Shown here piece after piece: positions 670 through 20,402 of a stretch of DNA of 33,854 bases. The number at the start of each line of letters is the position of its first letter. Position 1 is the stretch's first letter. The stretch spans positions 1 through 33,854 of the forward strand of contig LUCC01000002.1 in assembly GCA_001593855.1 (NCBI GenBank), in the 5' to 3' direction. The DNA comes from Candidatus Hecatellales archaeon B24 (lineage in GTDB: Archaea > Thermoproteota > Bathyarchaeia > Hecatellales > Hecatellaceae). The translations under genes were made by a program, and so were the position numbers. The notes beneath the pieces are model-generated. The model had not been told where the DNA came from, ran no database searches, and was given only the letters and a program-made list of their open reading frames with translations.

Positions 670-1902
670 TTACTTCAAGATTCCGTAGCCTACAAGCCTC
701 CACCGGCCTGCTATCCTACGGCTTAAGGCAACCCTTGAACCCTCCCCGGCGCACACAGGCTTCCTAAGGGAGATCTCAACGTAGCCATCCCGGCTGGAAG
801 TTATAACGCCAGCGGTTACAGAGGTGCCGGAGTTCACGACAACAGGCTCATTGGTTTTCAAAGGTTCAACCTCAACAAGTTCAGGCGTTCCAATAGCATA
901 CTTGAAAAGGCTGACTTCCACTCCAATCCGCTCTAAGGTTTCAGGCAGAGTTCCAGGCTTGCCCAGCAGGTTTCCTATAAGCCCGTCGGCTTTGGTGAAG
1001 GCCGGGTCCAACAGGGTTCCAACGCCTACTAGGCCTCCGCAGCCAGCCTCCTCAACGCTTCTCCCCCCAGCCCTTAAACTCACAACCTCGGTGTGAAGAG
1101 GCTCGTAGCCTCCTTCCTTTTCAACTCTAACCCCGGGCTTTATCTCTATTTCCTCTCCAACTTTGAGCTTTCCTTCGACGATGGTTCCGCCGAGAACTCC
1201 TCCTGTCAAATCTTCAATCTTGGTTCCAGGCTTGTTAATGTCGAAGGAGCGGACGATGTGCATGAGCGGAGGCTTAGAGGGATCTCTCCTAGGCGTAGGG
1301 ATGAAGTTTTCAACAGCCTCTATTAGGAGGTCTAGGTTTACCGCGTGTTGGGCTGAAACCGGGATTATAGGTGCGTCCTGTGCAACTGTCCCCTCAAGGA
1401 ACTTTTTGATGGCTTTAAAGTTTTCTTCAGCCTGCTCCCGGCTTACTAGGTCAACCTTGTTCTGAACTACCACGATGTTTTTCACGCCTATTATTTCGAG
1501 GGCTGCCATGTGCTCTCTGGTTTGAGGTTTGGGAACAGGCTCGTTGGCTGCTATTACGAGAATGGCGCCGTCCATTACAGAAGCCCCGGAAAGCATCGTG
1601 GTCATAAGGATTTCATGGCCTGGACAGTCTACAAAGCTTACAGCCCTCAGAAACTCGGTTTCACCACCGCAGAGAGGGCACACAGGCTTGGTGGTGTAGC
1701 ATTCGGGAGGAGGATGATTTGGACAGCGGTAGAAGCCGCAGTCAGCATAGCCAAGCCTAATCGTAATCCCCCTGCGAAGCTCCTCTGAGTGCCTAGCAGC
1801 CCAAACGCCTGTGAGTCCTTGGATAAGCGTGGTCTTACCATGGTCTACATGGCCTGCAGTTCCAATATTGCATTCAGGCTGCCTCGGCAGCGGCTCAGAC
1901 AA
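670..1902 (-). CDS. eif2g: Translation initiation factor aIF2 gamma subunit
   Basis: GTPase motifs GHVDHGKT, DCPGHE, NKVD; Cys-rich insert CPNHPPPECYTTKPVCPLCG typical of aIF2-gamma. The ORF extends to 1926, but MSEPLPRQPECNIGTAGHVDHGKT from a TTG at 1902 is a more typical N-terminus. Confidence 0.93.
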   Translation of the reverse strand: MSEPLPRQPECNIGTAGHVDHGKTTLIQGLTGVWAARHSEELRRGITIRLGYADCGFYRCPNHPPPECYTTKPVCPLCGGETEFLRAVSFVDCPGHEILMTTMLSGASVMDGAILVIAANEPVPKPQTREHMAALEIIGVKNIVVVQNKVDLVSREQAEENFKAIKKFLEGTVAQDAPIIPVSAQHAVNLDLLIEAVENFIPTPRRDPSKPPLMHIVRSFDINKPGTKIEDLTGGVLGGTIVEGKLKVGEEIEIKPGVRVEKEGGYEPLHTEVVSLRAGGRSVEEAGCGGLVGVGTLLDPAFTKADGLIGNLLGKPGTLPETLERIGVEVSLFKYAIGTPELVEVEPLKTNEPVVVNSGTSVTAGVITSSRDGYVEISLRKPVCAGEGSRVALSRRIAGRWRLVGYGILK

Positions 1903-1954
1903 ACCCGGCCACCAACACACAAACACAAACTAAACATTTATCCATTATGCTACC

Positions 1955-2956
1955 TCACGGTTTCCTCCAGGGAATCGGCACCGTGTCCAGCCTCCATCTA
2001 GGCTTAACAAAGCTGCGTTCCACTGGTACGCTTACGCCAGCTTGGCGGGCGAGGATCCCCGTCCAGGCGATCTGAGCCCCGCAGTCGCCGCTGTATTCTT
2101 TCGGCACAACGAGGAAGCAGGCTTCATGCTCCTCCGCCACGATTCGAAGCATTTCCTGAAGCCTCCGGTTTGCTGCTACGCCTCCTGTTAGCAGGAGCTC
2201 CCTCTTCTCTAGGAAGGCAAGAGCTCTCTCAGAGGCTTCAGCTAAGGCTGAGAAAGCAACTTCCTGGAGAGAGAAGCATAGGTCTTCAAGCCTGCAGCCC
2301 TCCCCCAGCTTTTTGACGGCTTGGGTTAGCAGGCCTGAATAGGATACGTCGTTTCCCTTAACCGTTAGAGGAAGCGGGATAAGATGTCTGCCCTCCCGGG
2401 CAAGTCTTTCAACGTTTGGCCCTCCAGGCGATGGAAGCTTAGCCTCCCGTGCGAAGCCGTCTAGCAGGTTTCCCAGCGTGATGTCTTCAGTTTCCCCGAA
2501 AACCCTCCACTTCCCAGCTGAGAAGGCCACTATGGAAGTGTGTCCTCCTGAAACCAGAACCACTAGGGGGTCTTCAGCCCCAGTTTTCAAGGCTGCAAGC
2601 TCAATATGACCTATAGCATGGTGGACGGGTATCAGGGGGACTTTAAGATACTTGGCTAGGGCCCTCGCCACCGTGGCTCCGGTTCTTAGGCATGGGCCTA
2701 AGCCTGGCCCCTGCGAGAAGGCTACAGCATCCACATCTTTCAGGCTTACCTCAGCCTTTCTGAGGGCTTCCATTAAAACTGCTGAGGAAACCTGGGAGTG
2801 ATGCTGCGCGCTCTCTCGGGGGTGGATGCCTCTGCCTGGGGGAGGCTTATAAACGCTTCGCTCATCGGAGAGGATTTCACCTTTACCAGTGGCCAAACTA
2901 ACTCCGAAGGTGTGAGCTGTGCTTTCTATGCCGAGACATAGGATTTCACGTGGCAA
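1955..2956 (-). CDS. kae1: tRNA N6-adenosine threonylcarbamoyltransferase Kae1 (KEOPS subunit)
   Basis: MPREILCLGIESTAHTFGVSLATGKGEILSDERSVYKPPPGRGIHPRESAQHHSQ; HHAIGHIELA; SGGHTS; GGVAANRRL motifs. Confidence 0.95.
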   Translation of the reverse strand: MPREILCLGIESTAHTFGVSLATGKGEILSDERSVYKPPPGRGIHPRESAQHHSQVSSAVLMEALRKAEVSLKDVDAVAFSQGPGLGPCLRTGATVARALAKYLKVPLIPVHHAIGHIELAALKTGAEDPLVVLVSGGHTSIVAFSAGKWRVFGETEDITLGNLLDGFAREAKLPSPGGPNVERLAREGRHLIPLPLTVKGNDVSYSGLLTQAVKKLGEGCRLEDLCFSLQEVAFSALAEASERALAFLEKRELLLTGGVAANRRLQEMLRIVAEEHEACFLVVPKEYSGDCGAQIAWTGILARQAGVSVPVERSFVKPRWRLDTVPIPWRKP

Positions 2957-3038
2957 GCCCTTCCAGCCCTTAAGGCTAGCCTCTCCGGAAGCAGTTAAAC
3001 TTTAATTTACGACGGGTTGAAAAGCTTAGCGGGGGAGG

Positions 3039-3689
3039 TTGAAGCTTCTAAGGAAGGGTGCTGAGGCAAATCTTTACTCAGCAAGGTTTCTAGGCCTAAA
3101 ATCCATAGTTAAGCTTAGGGTTAGGAAAGCCTACAGGGTGCCTGAACTTGACAGGAGAATCCGAGGGTACCGGACGGTCCACGAAGCAACCCTCCTCCAC
3201 GAAGCCAGAAAAGCTGGAGTGCCAACCCCGCTGGTATACTTCCTTGACAGGAAGAGCTGTAAGCTGATCCTTCAGCATGTGGAGGGGGTTAGACTTAAGG
3301 AAGCTCTGAACGGCAGGCTGGAACCTGGGAAAGTTAAAGGTTTGGCTTTAAGGCTTGGAGAGCTCGTAGGCAGGCTGCACAGCCACGGGATAATCCACGG
3401 CGACCTGACAACCTCCAATGTTATCCTCACACCTGAAGGCGGAATGGTGCTGATAGACTTCGGCTTAGGCTTCCACTCTGAAAGCTTGGAGGACAGGGGA
3501 ATGGACCTACACCTTCTAAGGCAGACCCTTGAAAGCCACCATACAAGGCTGGCTAAACCCTTCTTCCAAGCCGTCCTAGAAGGCTACGGGAAAATCCTTG
3601 GAAAGGAAAAACTCAGCGAAATAGAAGGCAAGCTTGGGGAAATCAAAGCAAGAGGCAGATACGTCCCCCCAGAAGACAGGAAAACCTGA
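3039..3689 (+). CDS. bud32: Bud32 (PRPK-type) atypical kinase, KEOPS subunit
   Basis: KGAEANLY, HEATLLHEARKAGVPTPLVYFLD, IIHGDLTTSNVILT, LIDFGLGFHSESLEDRGMDLHLLRQTLESHH. Start TTG at 3039. Confidence 0.92.
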   Translation: MKLLRKGAEANLYSARFLGLKSIVKLRVRKAYRVPELDRRIRGYRTVHEATLLHEARKAGVPTPLVYFLDRKSCKLILQHVEGVRLKEALNGRLEPGKVKGLALRLGELVGRLHSHGIIHGDLTTSNVILTPEGGMVLIDFGLGFHSESLEDRGMDLHLLRQTLESHHTRLAKPFFQAVLEGYGKILGKEKLSEIEGKLGEIKARGRYVPPEDRKT

Positions 3690-3706
3690 AACCTGCATTA
3701 AACCGG

Positions 3707-3922
3707 TTATAAACATTTAAGGTAATCTTCACGTGGGATACCACAATCCCTCAGTATTCTGCTAAGCAGCCCTACACCTATCTCCTTTACAGGAACGGTG
3801 ACGAAAACACCATCACGTTCAAGGGTAACATGACTGCCCTTACGGCGAACCACCTTAAAGCCAAAATTACGGCAAAGTATCTTTATAAGCTCACCTCCCC
3901 GTATAGGTTTTAAACGCATCAA
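3707..3922 (-). CDS. hicA: HicA-like mRNA interferase toxin (YcfA family)
   Basis: 71 aa; GGELIKILCRNFGFKVVRRKGSHVTLERDG..VTVPVKEIGVGLLSRILRDCGIPREDY; GSH motif with HicA fold pattern. Confidence 0.85.
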   Translation of the reverse strand: MMRLKPIRGGELIKILCRNFGFKVVRRKGSHVTLERDGVFVTVPVKEIGVGLLSRILRDCGIPREDYLKCL

Positions 3923-3995
3923 TAATCCATCTTCCTGGTATTCTTCTAAACTTTAATCAAGAAAGCTGCCAACAACAGAAGAAAAGTTTGGAAAA

Positions 3996-4193
3996 TCAGC
4001 CTACTTTAATCTGATTTTCAACCAGTTTTATGGCTTTTTCTTTTAATAAGGAAAGATGTAATTCAAGTGCTTCTTTAAAATTTTTTTTAGCTTCCTCCAA
4101 AGTTTTTCCTACACTATATACTTTCAGCGATGAGCAGGCAATGGCGTAGCTACCATCTTTCTCCCGGATAATTTCTATGCTGACCTCTTCCAA
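3996..4193 (-). CDS. hicB: HicB-like antitoxin (partial RNase H-fold type)
   Basis: 65 aa; SIEIIREKDGSYAIACSSLKVYSVGKTLEEAKKNFKEALELHLSLLKEK matches HicB-like family; upstream of hicA-like gene. Confidence 0.8.
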   Translation of the reverse strand: MEEVSIEIIREKDGSYAIACSSLKVYSVGKTLEEAKKNFKEALELHLSLLKEKAIKLVENQIKVG

Positions 4194-4197
4194 TCTT

Positions 4198-4255
4198 GTA
4201 AACCTTCCAGGCTTTCTATTAAAAAGTAACCAAAACTATTACAATTAAGGTTTAC
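4198..4255. promoter_or_regulatory. Inverted repeat GTAAACCTT-N40-AAGGTTTAC bracketing a putative TATA element upstream of hicB
   Basis: Perfect 9-bp inverted repeat, arms 4198-4206 and 4247-4255. On the minus strand a TTTTTAATAG element lies between the arms. Confidence 0.4.
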
Positions 4256-4268
4256 TGTACGGACGGTT

Positions 4269-4661
4269 TTATAGGAGTTTAAGCCGTCCTGTAACCTTGT
4301 TTATCAGGCTTACTGGGGCTGGTCCTATTCCAAGGCAGGTTACCGTTCCTGGTGGAACCTCTGTTAGGCCACGGTCTTCTATGAGGGCTGTGGGAAGCCC
4401 GAGGCTTTCAGCTTCAGCCTTAAGCTTTTCCAGCTCTTGGAAGCTTTCAACTTTCAGCACTACTTTACGCTGGCCTTCGCCAATCCACTGCCTCCACCAT
4501 TCAGGCCTGGCTTTTCTTGCTTTTTCAGCGGCTGAGACGGCTGCGTGGGCTATTTGGCTGCAGAGCTTCCCCTTGGAGAGTTTTAGGTCTTCTCTGACTA
4601 TGATGTTCTGGGTGTACTGGAATTCTTCAGCCACCTCTGGAAGCGGCCTCCTAGAAGGCAA
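4269..4661 (-). CDS. pth2: Peptidyl-tRNA hydrolase, Pth2 family
   Basis: [82 protein letters not shown]. Confidence 0.95.
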
Positions 4662-4722
4662 TTTATATATAGGAGTTTTAGGCTTCCCCTCTCATTTAAG
4701 GCTTGCAGGGGAAGGTTGAGGA

Positions 4723-4923
4723 GTGGGTTTAGAAGCCTCCACTGGAGTAAGCGAAGTTAAAGTTCCTATATGCACCTCCTGTGGCAGAACCATTATCCCG
4801 CTTGAATACTACGTGAGGTTCCCATGTCCAAACTGCGGCCAGATAACCATAGTCAGATGTGAGAAGTGCAGGAAGTTCGGCAGGTCCTATAAATGCCCTA
4901 AATGCGGCTTTCAAGGCCCCTAG
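4723..4923 (+). CDS. Small zinc-ribbon protein (HVO_2753-like / zinc-finger RNA-binding family)
   Basis: 66 aa with four CxxC knuckles (CTSC, CPNC, CEKC, CPKC). Immediately upstream of aEF1-beta, a common archaeal arrangement. Confidence 0.85.
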
Positions 4924-5342: not shown

Positions 5343-7526
5343 ATGACAAGTGAAATACAGCTTAGGGTTGCTGAAGCAAAGCAGAGGGATGTAGGCAGAG
5401 GAAAGGCGAGAATAGACCAGAGGGCTATGGAAGTCCTAGACGTAATGGCAGGCGACATCTTAGAAATTCGAGGTAAAAAAGTTACAGCCGCCATAGCGTG
5501 GCCTGCCTACCCTGAAGACCAGGGCGTGGACATCATACGTATAGACGGGCTCACCCGGAGGAACGCCCAAATATCGCTGAATGAGTACGTAACCGTTAGG
5601 AAAGCCATGGTTCATAACGCTTCCAGCGTAACCCTGGCCCCGGTGGACGTTCGAATAGAATTTGACCCTGACTTCACAAACTTTGTTAAGTCACGCCTTT
5701 TGGAGATGCCCTTAGTTGAGGGTGACATTGTTCTTCTATCCGTCTTCGGGAATGCCATGCCCTTCACCGTCGCCAAAACTAGGCCTTCAGGCATAGTTAG
5801 AGTTACCTCCGGCACCATATTCCAGGTTCTAAGCGAGCCAGCCCCTGAGAAGAAGGGTATTCCAAGGATAACCTACGAGGACATTGGAGGCCTCCACGAG
5901 GAGGTTCAGCGGATAAGGGAGATGGTTGAGCTTCCGCTTAGACATCCTGAACTGTTCCAGAGGCTTGGCATAGAGCCTCCGAAGGGCGTTCTGCTTCACG
6001 GGCCTCCGGGATGCGGGAAAACGCTGCTGGCGAAAGCAGTGGCCAACGAGGCTAACGCCTACTTCATCAATATTAATGGTCCTGAAATCATGAGCAAGTT
6101 CTACGGTGAATCGGAGGCAAGGCTTAGAGAAATCTTCCAGAAGGCCCAGGAGAACGCTCCCAGCATCATCTTCATAGACGAAATAGACGCTATAGCACCT
6201 AAGAGGGAGGAAGTTGTCGGGGAAGTGGAGAAGAGGGTTGTAGCCCAGCTGCTGGCCCTCATGGACGGGCTTCAAACTCGGGGGAACGTCATAGTTATTG
6301 GAGCTACAAACGTCCCTAACATGCTTGACCCTGCACTTAGAAGGCCGGGACGCTTCGACAGAGAAATAGAAATAGGAGTGCCTGACAAGGATGGACGCTT
6401 CGAAATCCTGCTTATTCACACCCGAGGCATGCCTATGGCTAAAGATGTAAACTTGAAGATGCTGGCGGATATAACTCATGGATATACGGGGGCGGACATA
6501 GCAGCCCTCTGCAGGGAAGCTGCCATGAAGGCTTTAAGGCGTTACCTTCCCAACATAGACCTAGAGCAGGAGCGAATTCCACCCCAAATCTTGGAGAGCA
6601 TGGAAATCAGGATGGACGATTTTATGGCAGCCTACCGGGAGATAACTCCAACAGCCATGAGAGAGGTCTTCATAGAAATTCCTAACATCCGCTGGGATGA
6701 CATTGGAGGGCTGGAGAAGGTTAAAAAGGAGTTGAGGGAAGCCGTTGAGTGGCCTCTAAAGTATCCTCAAGCCTTCGAGAGGGTTGGCATAGAGCCTCCG
6801 AAGGGCATCCTCCTCTACGGGCCTCCGGGATGCGGGAAAACGCTGCTGGCGAAAGCAGTGGCCAGTGAAAGCGAATCCAATTTCATAACGATTAAAGGGC
6901 CTGAAGTCTTCAGCAAGTGGGTTGGAGAGTCTGAAAGGGCGGTTAGAGAAGTCTTCAGGAAGGCTCGAATGGCTTCCCCAGCCATAATATTCTTCGACGA
7001 GTTTGACGCTTTGGTTCCGAGGAGAGGTATGGGCTATGCTGACCAAGGCGTGTCTGAACGTGTTATAAGCCAGCTTCTAACAGAGATGGATGGAATAATA
7101 GGTTTGGAGAACATAGTTGTGATTGGAGCTACAAACCGGCCTGACATTTTAGATCCGGCTGTACTCCGTCCAGGACGCTTCGACAAGCTAATATACGTTC
7201 CAGCCCCCGATGAGAAAGCCCGCAAGGAAATCTTCAAGGTCTACACCAAGAACATGCCTTTAACCGAGGATGTAAGCATTGAAGCCTTGGCTTCTCTGAC
7301 CAAGGGCTATAGTGGAGCTGACATTGAAGCCGTATGCAGAGAAGCAGGGCTTAACGCGTTGAGGAAGAACATCAACACCAAGGAGGTTTCCATGGAAGAC
7401 TTTAGGGAAGCCTTAGCCCGCATAGGCCCCAGCATCACACCTGAAATGGAGAAGTTTTATGAGAGCTTTGGAGCCACCTACAGGAAGCAGATGGAGAAAA
7501 CCCTCGTACCCCCGCCTATAGCTTAA
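5343..7526 (+). CDS. cdc48: CDC48/VAT-type AAA ATPase (two AAA domains)
   Basis: N-domain plus two AAA modules ([65 protein letters not shown]). ORF track begins at GTG 5319, but ATG 5343 has a good ribosome-binding site (GAGGGGGTGA). Confidence 0.96.
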
Positions 7527-7547
7527 ACTTCAGCAGCTGGGGAGAGG

Positions 7548-7796
7548 GTGGACGGCTTGTCAACCATGAAAATTTGGAGGCTAATCCCCCTACAGCAGAG
7601 GATAATGGAAGCCCTAAGGCAGCTTGGCTCATGCACAGACGACGAGCTTCTAAAGGCGTTGGACAGGGAGGGAGAAAACGTTACACCTGAAATTCTAAGT
7701 AAGGCGCTTCTACAGCTTGAAGTCCGAGGCCTCATAAGGCTTCTAGGCGCTCCGAAAGGTAGAAGGAAAATCGAGGTTAGACAGGGGAAGCCTTAA
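7548..7796 (+). CDS. Small winged-helix protein, conserved hypothetical
   Basis: 82 aa; [49 protein letters not shown] reads as a wHTH. 21 bp downstream of cdc48. Confidence 0.6.
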
Positions 7797-7842
7797 CATT
7801 AAATATTCTCTTCAGCCTCTAACCCTTCTGGAGGGGGCAGAA

Positions 7843-14137: not shown

Positions 14138-14728
14138 TCAGCCTTCCCGCCCGCCTATTTCTGAAGACTCCTCCGAGATGGTTAACAGGGACTCGGCTAA
14201 GGCTTCCAAGTCAACTTCAGCCCTAGTCCTCCAGCCTACCGTTAAAACCTCGTTTTCATCCTCATGCAGGTATCCAAGCCTAACAAACCTGTCCAGTGCA
14301 ATATTAACTCTCCACGAGGGAAGCTTGGAGGAGAGAAGCCTTTCAACCTCACCCCTCGAAGCCTTACCCTGCCTAGAAGCCAAGTAGGCGAGGGTTGCTG
14401 CTAGGGCTGCAAGGTCGTCTATACGCCATCCTGAAGCCTGTGCGTCGGTGGCTGGGAGGCTGCCCCGCAGGGTTACTAGGAAGCGGGCTCTGTCAAGCTT
14501 TGCCTCTTCGTCTCCGCCAGCCTCCCCCGAAGCCTCCGGAACTATTTTAACTTGAAGCCCAAGCCTTTCAAGCTCGCTGTCCAGCAGCTTAACGATTTTC
14601 ATGTAGTTTTTCCCAAGGCTTTTCCGCAGTTCCCATCCTTTAACTCCAGGAGTTCTGTGCCTTTGGAAGAGGAGAAGCTGAGCAGCTCTTTTCACTCTCC
14701 TAGCGTAGGAAGCTTCTCCACCGCTCAC
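14138..14728 (-). CDS. Nse3/MAGE-like (KITE-type) tandem winged-helix protein
   Basis: 196 aa; ALAATLAYLASRQGKASRGEVERLLSS...LDRFVRLGYLHEDENEVLTVGWRTRAEVDLEALAESLLTI parallels the second winged helix of MAGE/Nse3 (..GNRASEEEL.., ..YLDY..., ..YEFLWGPRAxxETSKMKVLEF). Overlaps the upstream Nse4-like gene by 4 nt (ATGA). Confidence 0.65.
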   Translation of the reverse strand: MSGGEASYARRVKRAAQLLLFQRHRTPGVKGWELRKSLGKNYMKIVKLLDSELERLGLQVKIVPEASGEAGGDEEAKLDRARFLVTLRGSLPATDAQASGWRIDDLAALAATLAYLASRQGKASRGEVERLLSSKLPSWRVNIALDRFVRLGYLHEDENEVLTVGWRTRAEVDLEALAESLLTISEESSEIGGREG

Positions 14729-15525
14729 TCTTCCCCACCGCCAACCATGAATTTATCGAGCGGTATGGCTACGGAGTATTCTCCTTTAGGCTTTCCAGCG
14801 GTTTCAGGCGTCGGCTTAAGTTTAAGCTCGCCTTTAAGCCTGTCCAAGGTTAGCTGAACATAGCCGTAGGTTGCAAGAAAGCTTACCATGTAGGCTTTAA
14901 GCACGGTTTCCCTGAAGGTTTCAGCCCTGACAAAGTCCCAGTAGGATATTTCCCCTCCAGCCTTTTCGGCTTCGGCTGAAAGCTTCTGGAAGGTTTCCTC
15001 CAGCAATCTTCTGAAGTCCCCGCTGAGGGTTAAACCTAAAGCCTTAACGGTTTCAGGTGAAACCTCGGCTTCAACCATTCTGGGGGCTTCTAAGGCTTCC
15101 GGAGGGAGGCTTCTCGGTTTAAGCCTTACCCAGTAGGAGGCAGCCTCCTTAAGCCTTTCAAGAGTTAAAACCTCGATTTTAACGGTGGGCTTCCAAGCTT
15201 TGAGGAATACTTCGGCGAGCTGTGGAATGGTCAGCTCAGCAATCCTCGTCTTAACGGTTTCAGGATCTAAAATTCTAAGCTTACTCCTAACCCTAACCCA
15301 TTCGTCTTGAAGTTCCACGACCTTTGAAAGACTGCGTAAAGCTTCCCCGTCGAGGGTTAGGTCTGAAGGTTTCACCCAGGCGGGGAGGAGACTGCGTAAA
15401 GCTTCAAGCTCCTCTTTAACGTCAACTTCAAAGGGGTTGAAACCTTTAGCTTCAACCTCCCTGCACAGGTGCACTATTCTCAGAGCCCTGTCTCTGGCTT
15501 CGCTAAGGCTTGGCTTCTCCTTCAA
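14725..15525 (-). CDS. Nse4-like kleisin
   Basis: 266 aa; C-terminal ISYWDFVRAETFRETVLKAYMVSFLATYGYVQLTLDRLKGELKLKP parallels the Nse4 C-terminal pattern (FxFVIDPxSFxxTVENxFxVSFLxxDGxxxIxLD). Overlaps the start of the Nse3-like gene and the end of the SMC-like gene. Confidence 0.65.
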   Translation of the reverse strand: MKEKPSLSEARDRALRIVHLCREVEAKGFNPFEVDVKEELEALRSLLPAWVKPSDLTLDGEALRSLSKVVELQDEWVRVRSKLRILDPETVKTRIAELTIPQLAEVFLKAWKPTVKIEVLTLERLKEAASYWVRLKPRSLPPEALEAPRMVEAEVSPETVKALGLTLSGDFRRLLEETFQKLSAEAEKAGGEISYWDFVRAETFRETVLKAYMVSFLATYGYVQLTLDRLKGELKLKPTPETAGKPKGEYSVAIPLDKFMVGGGEE

Positions 15526-17440
15526 CCAGGGCTACCTCCGATTTTCCTCCAACCTTCTGGACGACTATGATTCTTGCCTCTTCGTCGAAGACTGGGTGAT
15601 GCCAGGGTGTAATCACTATATACTGGGTTTCAGGGTTGTCTCTAACGGTTTCAACTATAAGCCGTGCCACAGCCTCCCTGTTCTTAGGGTCCATGTGTAC
15701 GTCAAACTCGTCCACAGCCCTAATAGGGGAGGCAACATGCTCCTGGAGGGCTAGGAGGAAAGCCATAATGGTGGTAGACCTTTCCCCTCCACTCTGCGTG
15801 TAAGCGTCAAGCCTTACAGGAGGAACCCCATGGAAGCCCACCGTCAACTCTAAGCCAGCCTTCTCGAAGCTTTGAGAATTAACTATTCGAACCTCTCCCG
15901 TGGCTCCTATGGTTGAGAGAAGCCGCTGGTAGCCCTGGTTAATCTTGGAAACAACCTTCTCAAGCTTTCCAATCCAAACCTCTCTTCTCGCATCTATTTC
16001 CTCCAGGAGCTTCCGCTTGTTTTCTTCAAGGGCTTCTATTTTCTCCTTAAGCTCCTCGTATAGCCTTCTAAACTTCTCGTATACCTTCTCAACCCTTCTG
16101 GAGATGTCGGAGAGGGTGGAAAGGTGGATGTTCACTGTTTTAAGCTCTTCAGCTACCTCCGGCGGGCTTCTGCCAGTGTAGATTCTCGGGCCTACCTTTG
16201 CAGCTTCAGCCTTACCGATTTCAAGGTCTTCCCTAACCTTCTCCATTTCACGGTAGAGCCTTTTAAGCTGGGAATCCAGCTCTTTAAACTGGTATTCTAG
16301 GAGGGCTTCGGAAATCCCTGCCTCGACGAGTTTATCCCTAGCCCTGTCAAGCCTGTCTTCAAGGCTTGAAAGCTGCTCCTTAAGCTTCAGGGCTTCTGAA
16401 GCTAAAGCTTTAACCTCATCCTTCAAGGCTTCAGCTTTGCCCTTAAGGTTTTCAGCCGGCTGGAGCTTTGAAAGCTCTTCCGCCAGCCTTATCCAGCCTT
16501 CCCTTTCAGCCTTCTCCACTTCAACCTTTAAGAGGTTGTGATACCTGTTTTTGAGGTCAGCCTTGACCTTTTCAAATCCTTCCAACGCTTTTTTCCTAGA
16601 GGACTTAGCTTCCTCAAGCCTTGAGAAGGTTCTGTCTATCCGCTTTTTCAGTTTTTCAGCGTCTTCAACCATTCCTTCAAGCTGAGATTCAAGCTTTGAA
16701 ACGTGTGACCATGCTAGTTCGACTTCAAGGTTTTTCCGCTGCTCCATGAGCCTGAGCTTTTTAAGGTAGCGTTCATGCTGGCTTCTCCAGTAGGAAAGGT
16801 TTTCTTCAGCCTCCTTAAGCAGCTTCCCAACGGATTTCTCCTCGGAAAGGAGGGCTTCAAGCCTTGTTTGAGCTTCAAGAACCCTTTGCCTGTAGGGATG
16901 AAGCCCTATGGCTTCCTCCACCAGCTGAAGCCTCTGCTCAGGAGAAATTAAGGCGAACTCTTCAACCATGCCCTGATGCATGATTATAAGCATGTTGTCA
17001 GGGTTTATGCCGAAGCTTGAAAGCACACGCACCAGGTCGCCTTTAGCCACATGCTTATAGTCAGCTTCAAACCAGTAGGTTCCATCCTTTCTAAGGTAGC
17101 GGGTAAGCCTGAAAGTGTCGGCGGTGGAGGTTGGAACGGGACGTCTGCCCTTAACAGGCTTGTTGCTGAAGAGCAGGGTTATCCTGGCGAGGTCGGCCCC
17201 CCGCCTGATAAGGCCGCTAAGCCTCCTAGAACGTTCTGTGTGAGCCTGACCTAAAGCCACAGATAGGGCGAGGAGAATTGAGGATTTACCAGCACCGTTA
17301 GGCCCGCATACCAGATTTAACCCGGCTTTAAGGGGAATCCTCGCATACTCGTAGGACATGAAGTTCTCTAGGATAATCTCTTCTATAATGGTTTTAGGAG
17401 CCTCCACGGCTTCAACTTTTCTTAGAGCCTCTCCACTCAA
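15503..17440 (-). CDS. Smc5/6-like SMC-family ATPase, short, without an evident hinge domain
   Basis: 645 aa. Walker A GPNGAGKSS (17279-17305); N-head LIIMHQGMVEEFALISPEQRLQLVEEAIG; signature QSGGERST (from 15796 leftward); Walker B IRAVDEFDVHMDP; ETQYIVITPW. Coiled coil between heads, no CxxC hook. TTG start with GAGGAG ribosome-binding site. Confidence 0.85.
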   Translation of the reverse strand: MSGEALRKVEAVEAPKTIIEEIILENFMSYEYARIPLKAGLNLVCGPNGAGKSSILLALSVALGQAHTERSRRLSGLIRRGADLARITLLFSNKPVKGRRPVPTSTADTFRLTRYLRKDGTYWFEADYKHVAKGDLVRVLSSFGINPDNMLIIMHQGMVEEFALISPEQRLQLVEEAIGLHPYRQRVLEAQTRLEALLSEEKSVGKLLKEAEENLSYWRSQHERYLKKLRLMEQRKNLEVELAWSHVSKLESQLEGMVEDAEKLKKRIDRTFSRLEEAKSSRKKALEGFEKVKADLKNRYHNLLKVEVEKAEREGWIRLAEELSKLQPAENLKGKAEALKDEVKALASEALKLKEQLSSLEDRLDRARDKLVEAGISEALLEYQFKELDSQLKRLYREMEKVREDLEIGKAEAAKVGPRIYTGRSPPEVAEELKTVNIHLSTLSDISRRVEKVYEKFRRLYEELKEKIEALEENKRKLLEEIDARREVWIGKLEKVVSKINQGYQRLLSTIGATGEVRIVNSQSFEKAGLELTVGFHGVPPVRLDAYTQSGGERSTTIMAFLLALQEHVASPIRAVDEFDVHMDPKNREAVARLIVETVRDNPETQYIVITPWHHPVFDEEARIIVVQKVGGKSEVALVEGEAKP

Positions 17441-17553: not shown

Positions 17554-18396
17554 CTAACCGGCCTTTTCCTCAAAAAGCTTTAAACAGTTTCTGAGAATTT
17601 CAAGCCTTGCAGCCTCCCATGAAAGCTTATCTCTGAGCCGTGCGGAAACCTCTTCATCCACGTGGAAAGGAAAGCCGTAGTCGACTTCTAACAGCATAAG
17701 CGTGGCGGCGGGAGCCGGAGGCGAGCTGAACCTGTTGAAACCCTCAGCTTTAATGCGGCTGTAGAGCACCTCTGGTTTAAGCTCTTCAGCTCCAGCTTTA
17801 AGCAGGACGGTGACTATTCTCCTTACGAGGCCGCGGATGAAGCTTTTCGCCGTGAAAACGAAGTTTATAAAGCCTTCGTGGAGGCTGACCTTCACGCCTT
17901 CGAGAGGGTTGAAGCCGAACTCAAAGGTTTTCTCCGAGGTGAAAAGCTGGGAGGCTTCAACCATGCATTTGAAGGCTTCACCCCGGTAGGGGGAGACATA
18001 AAGGTAGCGGCGCTTCAGGGCTTCCCTTCGAGGGTTGAAGGTTTTAGGAACCTTAGCCCAAGCCCAAGCCCGGATGTCTTCCGGAAGATGTGCGTTAAGC
18101 CTTTTAACCGTGAAGCTTTCAGCAGTGTTAAAGGCTATGGTTTGGCCTAGGGCGCTGACTCCACGGTCAGTTCTGGAGGCAGCCTGAAACTTGGCTTCAG
18201 CCTGCCCGCTTATAAGCTTGGAAGCCTCTAAAGCTTCAATCAGAGTTCCTCCTATGGTTGGCAGCCCTTTCTGAGGCTGGAAGCCGTAGTATCCTCTTCC
18301 ATCATAGTAAATCTTTACGGCGTAGCGTGTAGGAAGTCTGAGGGACTTCAAGAAGCTACCACCTTGAAGGTGTGCGGGCTTAGCGTTCCCTAGCAT
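17554..18396 (-). CDS. truA: tRNA pseudouridine synthase A (TruA)
   Basis: YAVKIYYDGRGYYGFQPQKGLPTIGGTLIEAL; AASRTDRGVSALGQTIAF; SFIRGLVRRIV. Confidence 0.93.
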   Translation of the reverse strand: MLGNAKPAHLQGGSFLKSLRLPTRYAVKIYYDGRGYYGFQPQKGLPTIGGTLIEALEASKLISGQAEAKFQAASRTDRGVSALGQTIAFNTAESFTVKRLNAHLPEDIRAWAWAKVPKTFNPRREALKRRYLYVSPYRGEAFKCMVEASQLFTSEKTFEFGFNPLEGVKVSLHEGFINFVFTAKSFIRGLVRRIVTVLLKAGAEELKPEVLYSRIKAEGFNRFSSPPAPAATLMLLEVDYGFPFHVDEEVSARLRDKLSWEAARLEILRNCLKLFEEKAG

Positions 18397-18913
18397 GCTT
18401 AACTATGTGTCCGGCCTCCGGGATGATAAGCTCTCTTAAGGCGAGTTCCACCGCGTTAGGGGAGCCTGGGAGGCAGAATACAGCCTTCCCCCTGCTTACT
18501 CCTGCAAGAGCCCTGGTCAGCATGGCTGGGGAGCCTACCTTCTGAAAGCTTAAAAGGCGTAGCAGCTCTCCGAAGCCTGGAAGCCTTTTCTCCAGCAGCC
18601 TTTCCACGGACTCGATGGTTACGTCGCTTTGGGAGACTCCCGTGCCTCCCATGGTGACCACCACATCAAAGTCGTGTGAGGACAGCAAGCCTTTAACAAG
18701 CCCTACTATCTGGGCTGAATCGTCGGGGATTACCTGGCGGTAGGCGACTTTATGGCCTGCTTCCTCCACGAGTTTTGCTGCCAGGCTCCCGCTTGGGTCT
18801 TCAAGAGGTTTCCCAGCCTTAAGCTCTTTCGCCTTGGATGTGCTTACCGTTATAAGGGCGAACCTAAGCTGGCTTGGGGCTTCAGCCTTATGTTTTAAGG
18901 CGGTTTCACTCAA
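18380..18913 (-). CDS. moaB: Molybdenum cofactor biosynthesis protein MoaB/MogA
   Basis: FALITVSTSKAKELK..DPSGSLAAKLVEEAGHKVAYRQVIPDDSAQI; VVTMGGTGVSQSDVTIESVERL; FCLPGSPNAVELAL. Confidence 0.93.
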   Translation of the reverse strand: MSETALKHKAEAPSQLRFALITVSTSKAKELKAGKPLEDPSGSLAAKLVEEAGHKVAYRQVIPDDSAQIVGLVKGLLSSHDFDVVVTMGGTGVSQSDVTIESVERLLEKRLPGFGELLRLLSFQKVGSPAMLTRALAGVSRGKAVFCLPGSPNAVELALRELIIPEAGHIVKHARER

Positions 18914-19446
18914 GACTTTTCCACCCTTCGAGGTTTAGGCTTGGCTTTCTTGATTTTCTTGACCACGCGTATGCTGGAGATTTGGGTGTGGGGGTATTGG
19001 CCTTCCTCATCTTTCTCGTAGGGTTTAGCCATATCCCATATGTTAAGTAGCGCCACGGCTGCGGCTGTTAGGGCTTCCATTTCAACTCCTGTCTGAGCGT
19101 AGGCTTTAACCTCTGCTGAAACCTTGATGGTGAAGTCGTCTGGAAACTGGTAGCTGACCTTCACGCCGGTTACCGGTATAGGATGACATAGGGCTACGAT
19201 TTTCGGGGTTTCCTTAGCCGCCAGCGTTGCCATAACCGTGGCGACGTTTAGGGGGTCCCCCTTCGCTATGAGGCCTTTTCTCACCCGCTTCACGGTTTCA
19301 GGCTTAAGCCTGATAAGACCTTCAGCCACGGCCTCCCTTAGAACAGCAGGCTTGCCTGAGATGTCCACCATAGCCGGTTTACCTGTCATAAGCCTGCGAC
19401 CTCCAAAAGCGAATATTCCCTGTTCACTTAAATAATAGGCTTCCAA
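18910..19446 (-). CDS. moaC: Cyclic pyranopterin monophosphate synthase MoaC
   Basis: MVDISGKPAVLREAVAEG; KGDPLNVATVMATLAAKETPKIVALCHPIPVTGVKVSYQF; GVEMEALTAAAVALLNIWDMAKPYEKDEEGQYPHT. Confidence 0.95.
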   Translation of the reverse strand: MEAYYLSEQGIFAFGGRRLMTGKPAMVDISGKPAVLREAVAEGLIRLKPETVKRVRKGLIAKGDPLNVATVMATLAAKETPKIVALCHPIPVTGVKVSYQFPDDFTIKVSAEVKAYAQTGVEMEALTAAAVALLNIWDMAKPYEKDEEGQYPHTQISSIRVVKKIKKAKPKPRRVEKS

Positions 19447-19451
19447 GCTTT

Positions 19452-20402
19452 TTACGTCTGACGTACCCTCCGGGGATAGAAAGGCTCTCTTAAGGCTACC
19501 GCCTTCCGTAAAGCCTCCTCCACAGCTCCCTGAGAAAACGGGTTGTGAAGGAGAGAAGCTACATCTATAAGGTTGTCGTTACGCATGAGGCAGGGCTTAA
19601 GCTTTCCGTCGGCTGTCACGCGAAGCCTCTTGCAGTTGGCGCAGAACTCTGAATTGTGGAAGGGGCGCACAAGCTCAACCTTAACCCTGCCATCCTTCAA
19701 ATAGTAGATTTTCCTGTTGTGGAGAGGCCTAACCTCAACCCTGCAGGCTTCAGCTTCAAGCTTTTCCTCCACAGGGTTAAGGCTTGAATAGTAGCGGCTG
19801 TAGATTTCGCTTCCGGCACCTATCTTTTCCAGCTCGATAAGCTGGAGAACCAGGTCTCTTCCCTCTATAAACTTCATGGCGGACCATATGTCCTGCTCGT
19901 TTAACCCCTTCAAGACAACCATGTTAAGTTTTACAGGTGTTAACCCGGCTTTTTCAGCTTCCGCTATGCCTTCCAGAACCCTGCCTAGCAGAGGACTTCC
20001 GGTTACACTCTCGTAGACTTCTCCTCTGAGGGATGGGAGGTTCACGTTCACCCTGGCAAGGCCTGCCTCCCTAAGCTTCCACGCGGCTTCAGAAAGCAGA
20101 ATTCCGTTGGTGGTAAGCGAAACTTCAACTATACCTTTAACCCTGGAGATTCTCCCCACGATTTCGGCTAGGTCAGACCTTAAGAGGGGTTCTCCACCTG
20201 TAAGCTTAACCTTCCTCATCTCAAGTTCTGCTGCGACTTCAACAAGACTTTGAATTTGGCTTGGGCTCAGCTCCCCGGCGGGAGAACTGCCGTAGCCTTC
20301 CCTATGGCAGTATATACACTGGAGGTTGCAGCGTTCGGTTAAAGATATTCTAAGCTGGGTTACAGGCCTTCCAAACCTGTCTAGGAGAGGCAGAAAACCC
20401 AC
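19452..20402 (-). CDS. moaA: GTP 3',8-cyclase MoaA (radical SAM)
   Basis: RISLTERCNLQCIYCHREG (CxxxCxxC), KLTGGEPLLRSDL, CxxCKRLRVTADGKLKPCL. Confidence 0.95.
   Translation of the reverse strand: MGFLPLLDRFGRPVTQLRISLTERCNLQCIYCHREGYGSSPAGELSPSQIQSLVEVAAELEMRKVKLTGGEPLLRSDLAEIVGRISRVKGIVEVSLTTNGILLSEAAWKLREAGLARVNVNLPSLRGEVYESVTGSPLLGRVLEGIAEAEKAGLTPVKLNMVVLKGLNEQDIWSAMKFIEGRDLVLQLIELEKIGAGSEIYSRYYSSLNPVEEKLEAEACRVEVRPLHNRKIYYLKDGRVKVELVRPFHNSEFCANCKRLRVTADGKLKPCLMRNDNLIDVASLLHNPFSQGAVEEALRKAVALREPFYPRRVRQT

Follow-up and report, generated by a model that had tools for sequence, protein, structure and literature searches.

A three-gene archaeal operon encoding a hinge-less Smc5/6-like ATPase with putative Nse4 and Nse3/MAGE counterparts

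The locus

The DNA considered here, which we call the window, is a stretch of 33,854 nucleotides whose contig has Candidatus Hecatellales archaea as its nearest relatives and whose source genome measures 818 kb and is 72% complete. On its minus strand lie three overlapping genes, at exactly the coordinates that a sequence-only reading had given them. That reading had also described both overlaps: the one of 23 nucleotides between the first two genes is confirmed, and the one between the second and third is indeed four nucleotides long, but it reads GTGA and not ATGA. The features are as follows.

15503..17440, minus strand: gene for the Smc5/6-like SMC ATPase (645 aa, TTG start), with a short coiled coil and no hinge
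17279..17305, minus strand: Walker A motif GPNGAGKSS, residues 46-54 (from the 34-member alignment A3)
16001..16873, minus strand: antiparallel coiled-coil arms and tip, approximately residues 190-480, with no globular hinge and no CxxC
15776..15796, minus strand: ABC signature QSGGERS, residues 549-555, its Q being Smc5-like
15689..15718, minus strand: Walker B/D-loop AVDEFDVHMD, residues 575-584, with a Smc6-like DEFDVxMD
15503..15525, minus strand: SMC/kleisin gene overlap, 23 nt (from the ORF coordinates)
14725..15525, minus strand: gene for the Nse4-like kleisin (266 aa, TTG start)
15274..15507, minus strand: helical domain at the N-terminus of the kleisin (residues 7-84), which presumably binds the SMC neck (from a ScpA-N profile match and AF2 helices)
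14812..15018, minus strand: winged helix at the C-terminus of the kleisin (residues 170-238), which presumably binds the SMC cap (from Nse4_C, ScpA C-WHD and Foldseek)
14725..14728, minus strand: kleisin/KITE stop-start overlap, 4 nt, GTGA (read directly from the sequence)
14138..14728, minus strand: gene for the Nse3/MAGE-like KITE, a tandem winged-helix protein (196 aa, GTG start)

A canonical SMC-ScpA-ScpB operon is also present in the window, about 3 kb from these genes.

An ATPase of the Smc5/Smc6 lineage

As a single sequence the ATPase matches Pfam SMC_N at 3.5e-32; among PDB entries it matches yeast Smc5 best (2.4e-31), closely followed by human SMC5 and SMC6. When the PDB is searched with the family profile (alignment A3, 34 members), the top ten sequences are all yeast or human Smc5 or Smc6, at 2.7e-62 to 4.1e-53, while SMC2 and archaeal Smc rank below them. 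The window's own canonical SMC serves as a control: its 53 PDB matches at E<1e-10 are chains of Smc, SMC1-4 and Rad50 only, with no Smc5 or Smc6 among them. A tree was built on the N- and C-terminal SMC heads, for which PDB alignments supplied just two sequences each of Smc5 and Smc6 and which has no SMC1-4. A split with UFBoot 99 sets the archaeal family plus Smc5/Smc6 apart from Rad50-like proteins and canonical SMC. Within this tree the archaeal members form a clade of their own (UFBoot 99) with Smc5+Smc6 as its sister, the grouping of those two being weak (UFBoot 69). Constrained topologies, each obtained from a full tree search, were compared by the AU and SH tests; forcing the archaeal family to join canonical SMC is rejected by AU (p 0.034) but not by SH (p 0.098), and a topology that joins it to only one of Smc5 and Smc6 is not rejected, whichever of the two is chosen. 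The trees are compatible both with a position before the Smc5/Smc6 duplication and with closeness to Smc5 or Smc6 alone, and do not decide between these.

Individual residues point the same way as the split. At 31 positions the family has a conserved residue that canonical SMC almost never shows and that at least one Smc5/6 sequence shares, against a converse count of 10; several of these residues, N149, M583 (in the Walker B ...MD) and P612 (in ITP) among them, are common to all four eukaryotic Smc5/Smc6 sequences, and M583 is absent from 11 canonical SMCs. The ATPase motifs are intact in the window's protein and invariant across the family, as illustrated by G46, P47, N48, G49, G51, K52 and S53 of Walker A in the 34-member alignment. 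The sequence-only reading had called these Smc5-type heads; the lineage stands, but the heads are about equally Smc5-like, through QSGGER, and Smc6-like, through DEFDVxMD (the aligned row of human SMC6 reads LDEFDVYMD). From such comparisons we place the ATPase in the Smc5/Smc6 clade and not in the clade of SMC1-4 and Smc.

One SMC gene and no hinge

The absent hinge is the main departure of the archaeal SMC from Smc5/6. In a Pfam domain search SMC_hinge matches none of the 34 family members, the zinc hook CxxC is likewise absent from all 34, and residues 256-375 are the least conserved part of the protein in the alignment. Family members span 604-756 aa, whereas the canonical SMC of the window has 1208 aa and an SMC_hinge. 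With neither hinge nor hook, a closed ring of the Smc5/6 type may not form. There is also no eukaryotic-like pair of Smc5 and Smc6: a single SMC gene lies here, and among the matches listed for 250 genomes each genome has one family member, so that an SMC homodimer is to be expected instead of Smc5+Smc6. Two candidates for a second SMC were considered and set aside. The longer proteins of one family (1039-1067 aa), paralogues that only a handful of genomes have, fall within the archaeal clade and contain a CxxC element, and an apparent second SMC between the SMC and kleisin genes of locus L023 is an insertion of unrelated genes.

The two partners

The second gene encodes an Nse4-type kleisin, whose C-terminal winged helix had already been read from the sequence as Nse4-like. 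A PDB search with the kleisin profile (A2, 49 members) gives six matches at E<10. Yeast Nse4 and human EID3 occupy the top four places (2.5e-4 to 6.7e-4, with best values of 2.5e-4 and 6.5e-4, respectively); the fifth is the archaeal ScpA N-domain 6ivh, at E 0.078 over profile positions 8-77. Pfam Nse4_C is matched by 38 of the 49 members, at best with 5.7e-6, and the window's protein as a single sequence scores 13.1 bits against it, under the Pfam curated cut-off of 26 bits. Its AF2 model (pLDDT 76, with a low global pTM of 0.37) has N-domain helices at 7-27, 36-45 and 53-84, and a Foldseek search with this model places Nse4 first and second (7tve_G, 7qcd_F), then the winged helices of Rad21, ScpA and Scc1. 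There are matches to ScpA as well: the C-terminal winged helix has single-sequence matches to the ScpA C-WHD in 5xns_C and 4i99_C (E 0.4-0.5; TMt 0.76 for 4i99_C in Foldseek), and the family HMM also matches a relative's canonical ScpA (locus L102, E 3e-5).

The third protein is harder to recognise. Single-sequence searches of Pfam, NCBIfam and the PDB give no match, and the alignment profile finds only noise in the PDB. MAGE is the most frequent Pfam family among its relatives (5 of 36, best 3.6e-4), the best member reaching 20.8 bits, under the 25-bit cut-off. The AF2 model (pLDDT 83) contains two winged helices, and Foldseek ranks Nse3 of the Nse1-Nse3-Nse4 complex first (7dg2_C, 3.2e-5), with MAGE-G1 (5hvq), MAGEA4 and Nse1 among the further top matches, followed by JetB and MukE, from the KITE-based Wadjet and MukBEF complexes, and by ScpB. 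Nearly all leading matches are thus KITE or MAGE proteins, those of Smc5/6 coming first and cullin winged-helix domains after, at moderate TM-scores of about 0.55 and an rmsd of 5.9 for the best match. Since the sequence searches are otherwise empty, the identity of this protein rests on the fold search together with the weak MAGE matches, and the earlier proposal of an Nse3/MAGE-type winged-helix protein is borne out by the ranking of folds, with weak support from sequence. We take it to be a tandem winged-helix KITE of the Nse3/MAGE type. The source genome, at its 72% completeness, holds a single match to the KITE profile, and neither a second KITE (Nse1, with RING) nor Nse2 was found within the operon or its conserved flanks.

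Conservation and distribution

The three genes are inherited as a unit. A scan of genome contigs, from which the best 80 loci were kept, shows the order SMC-kleisin-KITE in 75 of them, usually with genes overlapping or a few bases apart; this is far beyond chance, and the same order recurs in most of 20 additional loci. A sample of 250 Thermoproteota genomes, almost all of them 85% complete or more, contains 106 with the SMC (about 40%), 105 with the kleisin and 104 with the KITE, and no genome has the kleisin or the KITE without the SMC. In the two SMC genomes that lack the full set, a gene is truncated or at a contig edge. Fisher p-values for this co-occurrence overstate independence, because the genomes share ancestry. 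In a few lineages, including the genome of locus L094, the SMC gene has moved away from the kleisin-KITE pair and all three are retained; this speaks for genes that are linked by function and not just by location. Named carriers are Bathyarchaeota, Nitrososphaeria/'Thaumarchaeota', Methanomethylicota and relatives, and one MAG labelled Methanosarcinales. There is one KITE per genome, and none was found on the viral contigs or plasmids searched.

The genes flanking the operon have no conserved strand or function, with one exception. A family of 227-aa proteins adjoins it, divergently transcribed, in about 19 loci, and in the Thermoproteota sample 92 of the 106 SMC-bearing genomes have this family, as do 8 of the 144 that lack the SMC. 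It has no match in Pfam, NCBIfam or the PDB, and may be a fourth partner of the complex.

Relation to known systems

With the core of eukaryotic Smc5/6 (Smc5, Smc6, Nse4, Nse3 and Nse1) the archaeal set shares the family of the SMC heads, the Nse4-like C-terminal winged helix of the kleisin and a KITE that resembles Nse3/MAGE. The eukaryotic complex differs in having two SMC genes of about 1100 aa where there is one here, a hinge where the archaeal family has none, and Nse1 and Nse3 where there is one KITE; Nse2 and RING have no place in the archaeal operon. Homology makes the archaeal set a relative of Smc5/6 in which three of the core subunits have counterparts. It is distinct from the eukaryotic Smc5/6 complex itself, two of whose defining features (two SMC genes and a hinge) are missing.

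The ATPase lineage is not new. An 'SMC5/6-related' archaeal SMC, which groups with SMC5 and SMC6 (MLBP/BPP 100/0.99), has already been published (PMC9389158, citing Yoshinaga & Inagaki 2021), and it is almost certainly the same ATPase family; as PMC9389158 describes it, that work concerns the ATPase, and kleisin and KITE partners, operon and missing hinge go unmentioned there. An 'ancestral SMC5/6-like complex' has also been proposed earlier (PMC6356406). A search that covered a collection of open-access papers found no description of archaeal Nse4/Nse3 counterparts, of the operon or of a hinge-less archaeal Smc5/6-like SMC. Hinge-less SMCs that branch with actinobacterial SMC have been reported from marine Actinobacteria (PMC12153180); these too have a head and a coiled coil with no hinge or zinc hook, but the paper mentions neither kleisin nor KITE and we regard them as a separate case.

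Weighing the explanations

What, then, is this operon? In separate tests, each of the three proteins sided with its own counterpart in Smc5/6, as the sequence-only reading had proposed; the outcome that would have spoken against it, namely an ATPase that sides with Rad50 or canonical SMC next to partners of unrelated fold, did not occur. We therefore think it very probable that the genes encode a minimal Smc5/6-like complex of archaea, one that is sister to eukaryotic Smc5/6 but has a single SMC and no hinge, and whose assembly and function we infer. The most obvious competitor is a lineage-specific paralogue of archaeal SMC-ScpAB, in other words a duplicated condensin whose likeness to Smc5/6 is convergent or a long-branch effect. 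The plan of SMC, kleisin and KITE is shared with prokaryotic Smc-ScpAB, the canonical operon sits close by, the kleisin profile also finds ScpA, both in L102 and in the ScpA N-domain, and the SH test tolerates a grouping with canonical SMC. That grouping is nevertheless rejected by AU and contradicted by the strongly supported split, N149, M583 and P612 are absent from canonical SMC, and the partners rank Nse4 and Nse3/MAGE above ScpA and ScpB. The window's own ScpA and ScpB match SMC_ScpA and SMC_ScpB in Pfam, not Nse4_C or MAGE, whereas the three subunits of interest match Smc5/Smc6, Nse4 and Nse3; having neither ScpA/ScpB partners nor a hinge-containing Smc, the set falls outside Smc-ScpAB, and we consider a paralogue quite unlikely.

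It strikes us as very unlikely that the operon is a defence system fixed in the chromosome, an SMC-based one like Wadjet (JetABCD) or Lamassu that would sense and remove foreign DNA, even though the composition equals JetABC, JetB of Wadjet (8dk1_F, 8as8_C) appears among the fold matches of the KITE, and PADLOC matches the ATPase to mad3 and LmuB. Neither a JetD nuclease nor any other conserved effector or defence gene adjoins the operon, its flanking genes being diverse and on random strands; the ATPase is closest to Smc5/6 and not a MukB-like JetC, kleisin and KITE have no PADLOC match, and the genes are chromosomal, widespread and single-copy, with the KITE missing from the viral contigs and plasmids searched. 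There is, finally, the idea of a Rad50/ASRP (coalescin-like) ATPase beside unrelated winged-helix neighbours, suggested by a length of 645 aa and a missing hinge, which resemble ASRP and RecN more than SMC, and by a match of the ASRP model at 2.7e-14. This is largely refuted and to our minds hardly credible: the ASRP score is 52.7 against a cut-off of 300, compared with 219 for SMC_prok_A, the ATPase family has no zinc hook, which the vast majority of ASRPs possess according to PMC9389158, inheritance is strictly joint with the kleisin, and the head tree separates the family and Smc5/Smc6 from Rad50-like proteins.

How the complex might work, and why it matters

In KITE-type SMC complexes the kleisin bridges two heads, KITEs sit on its middle and DNA is clamped on the ATP-engaged heads (PMC10512200). 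The build of the archaeal proteins suits this scheme: the kleisin has a helical domain at its N-terminus, a middle segment and a winged helix at its C-terminus, and there is one gene each for KITE and SMC. A minimal Smc5/6-like complex could be built along these lines, with two copies of the SMC pairing through ATP-dependent head engagement and perhaps also through the coiled-coil tip, and with one kleisin as the bridge, bound through its N-terminal helices to the neck of one SMC and through its C-terminal winged helix to the other head's cap. With a single KITE gene, the KITE would be expected to pair with itself, like ScpB or MukE; this dimer would sit on the middle of the kleisin and clamp DNA atop the engaged heads, and ATP hydrolysis would then drive DNA capture and translocation or compaction. 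We envisage a role in chromosome maintenance, perhaps on recombination or replication intermediates, beside the resident SMC-ScpAB; because the genes are stably kept, widespread and present in single copy, such a chromosomal role is likelier than one in defence. Beyond this, we see roughly even chances that the operon is a surviving form of Smc5/6 from before the duplication, homodimeric and hinge-less, in which counterparts of Nse4 and Nse3/MAGE were already in place ahead of the split of Smc5 from Smc6, possibly along with the 227-aa partner.

A prokaryotic source of Smc5/6 has so far been a proposal, with no concrete example found that includes the partners. The compact archaeal operon offers a minimal version of Smc5/6 that can be reconstituted. 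It also makes it possible to test directly if MAGE/Nse3 and Nse4 are older than eukaryotes, and to ask if a hinge is needed at all for clamping and translocating DNA. The ancestor of eukaryotic Smc5/6, as found in human and yeast, probably has a simple relative in this three-gene set of uncultured archaea, and if the pre-duplication reading is true, then eukaryotes would have inherited Smc5/6 from archaea and a machine made of SMC, kleisin and KITE would function without any hinge.

Genomic neighbourhood

The Smc5/6-like operon lies about 3 kb from the window's canonical SMC operon, in which the ScpA and ScpB genes overlap; for archaea, six ScpA–ScpB pairs have been reported without interaction (PMC7055376).

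20462-25467, minus: canonical SMC-ScpA-ScpB operon
17554-20402, minus: truA-like, MoaB-like, MoaC and MoaA genes, between the two SMC operons

The intervening genes form a mixed cluster of tRNA-modification and molybdenum-cofactor functions. Directly upstream of the Smc5/6-like SMC, the genes stand in the order MoaB-TruA, which is also seen in locus L021 and, with one gene intervening, in L023.

Related SMCs elsewhere

Four loci of one family (L108, L117, L109, L110) encode a second, longer Smc5/6-like SMC (1039-1067 aa), nested within the short, hinge-less family and carrying a conserved, zinc-binding-like motif in mid-coiled coil (RCDKCGS...W..HL); neither kleisin nor KITE was found adjoining these genes. 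In a MAG labelled Methanosarcinales (L094, L185), a Cas6 gene adjoins the SMC, and kleisin and KITE sit side by side on another contig; either these genes have spread outside Thermoproteota, or the bin is mixed or wrongly labelled.

1657-4857, plus: longer SMC, L108
1924-5040, minus: longer SMC, L117
894-2909: Smc5/6-like SMC, L094

A candidate fourth partner

In about 19 loci from several archaeal classes, the operon is adjoined by a divergently transcribed gene for an uncharacterised protein family of ~227 aa, with no match in Pfam, NCBIfam or PDB.

7129-7830, minus: member, L027
7149-7829, minus: member, L077
6563-7243, minus: member, L035
15578-16258, minus: member, the window's own genome (G000, contig C6)

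The family occurs in 92 of the 106 genomes with the Smc5/6-like SMC versus 8 of the 144 without it, an association inflated by the genomes' shared ancestry. We regard it as a candidate fourth partner.
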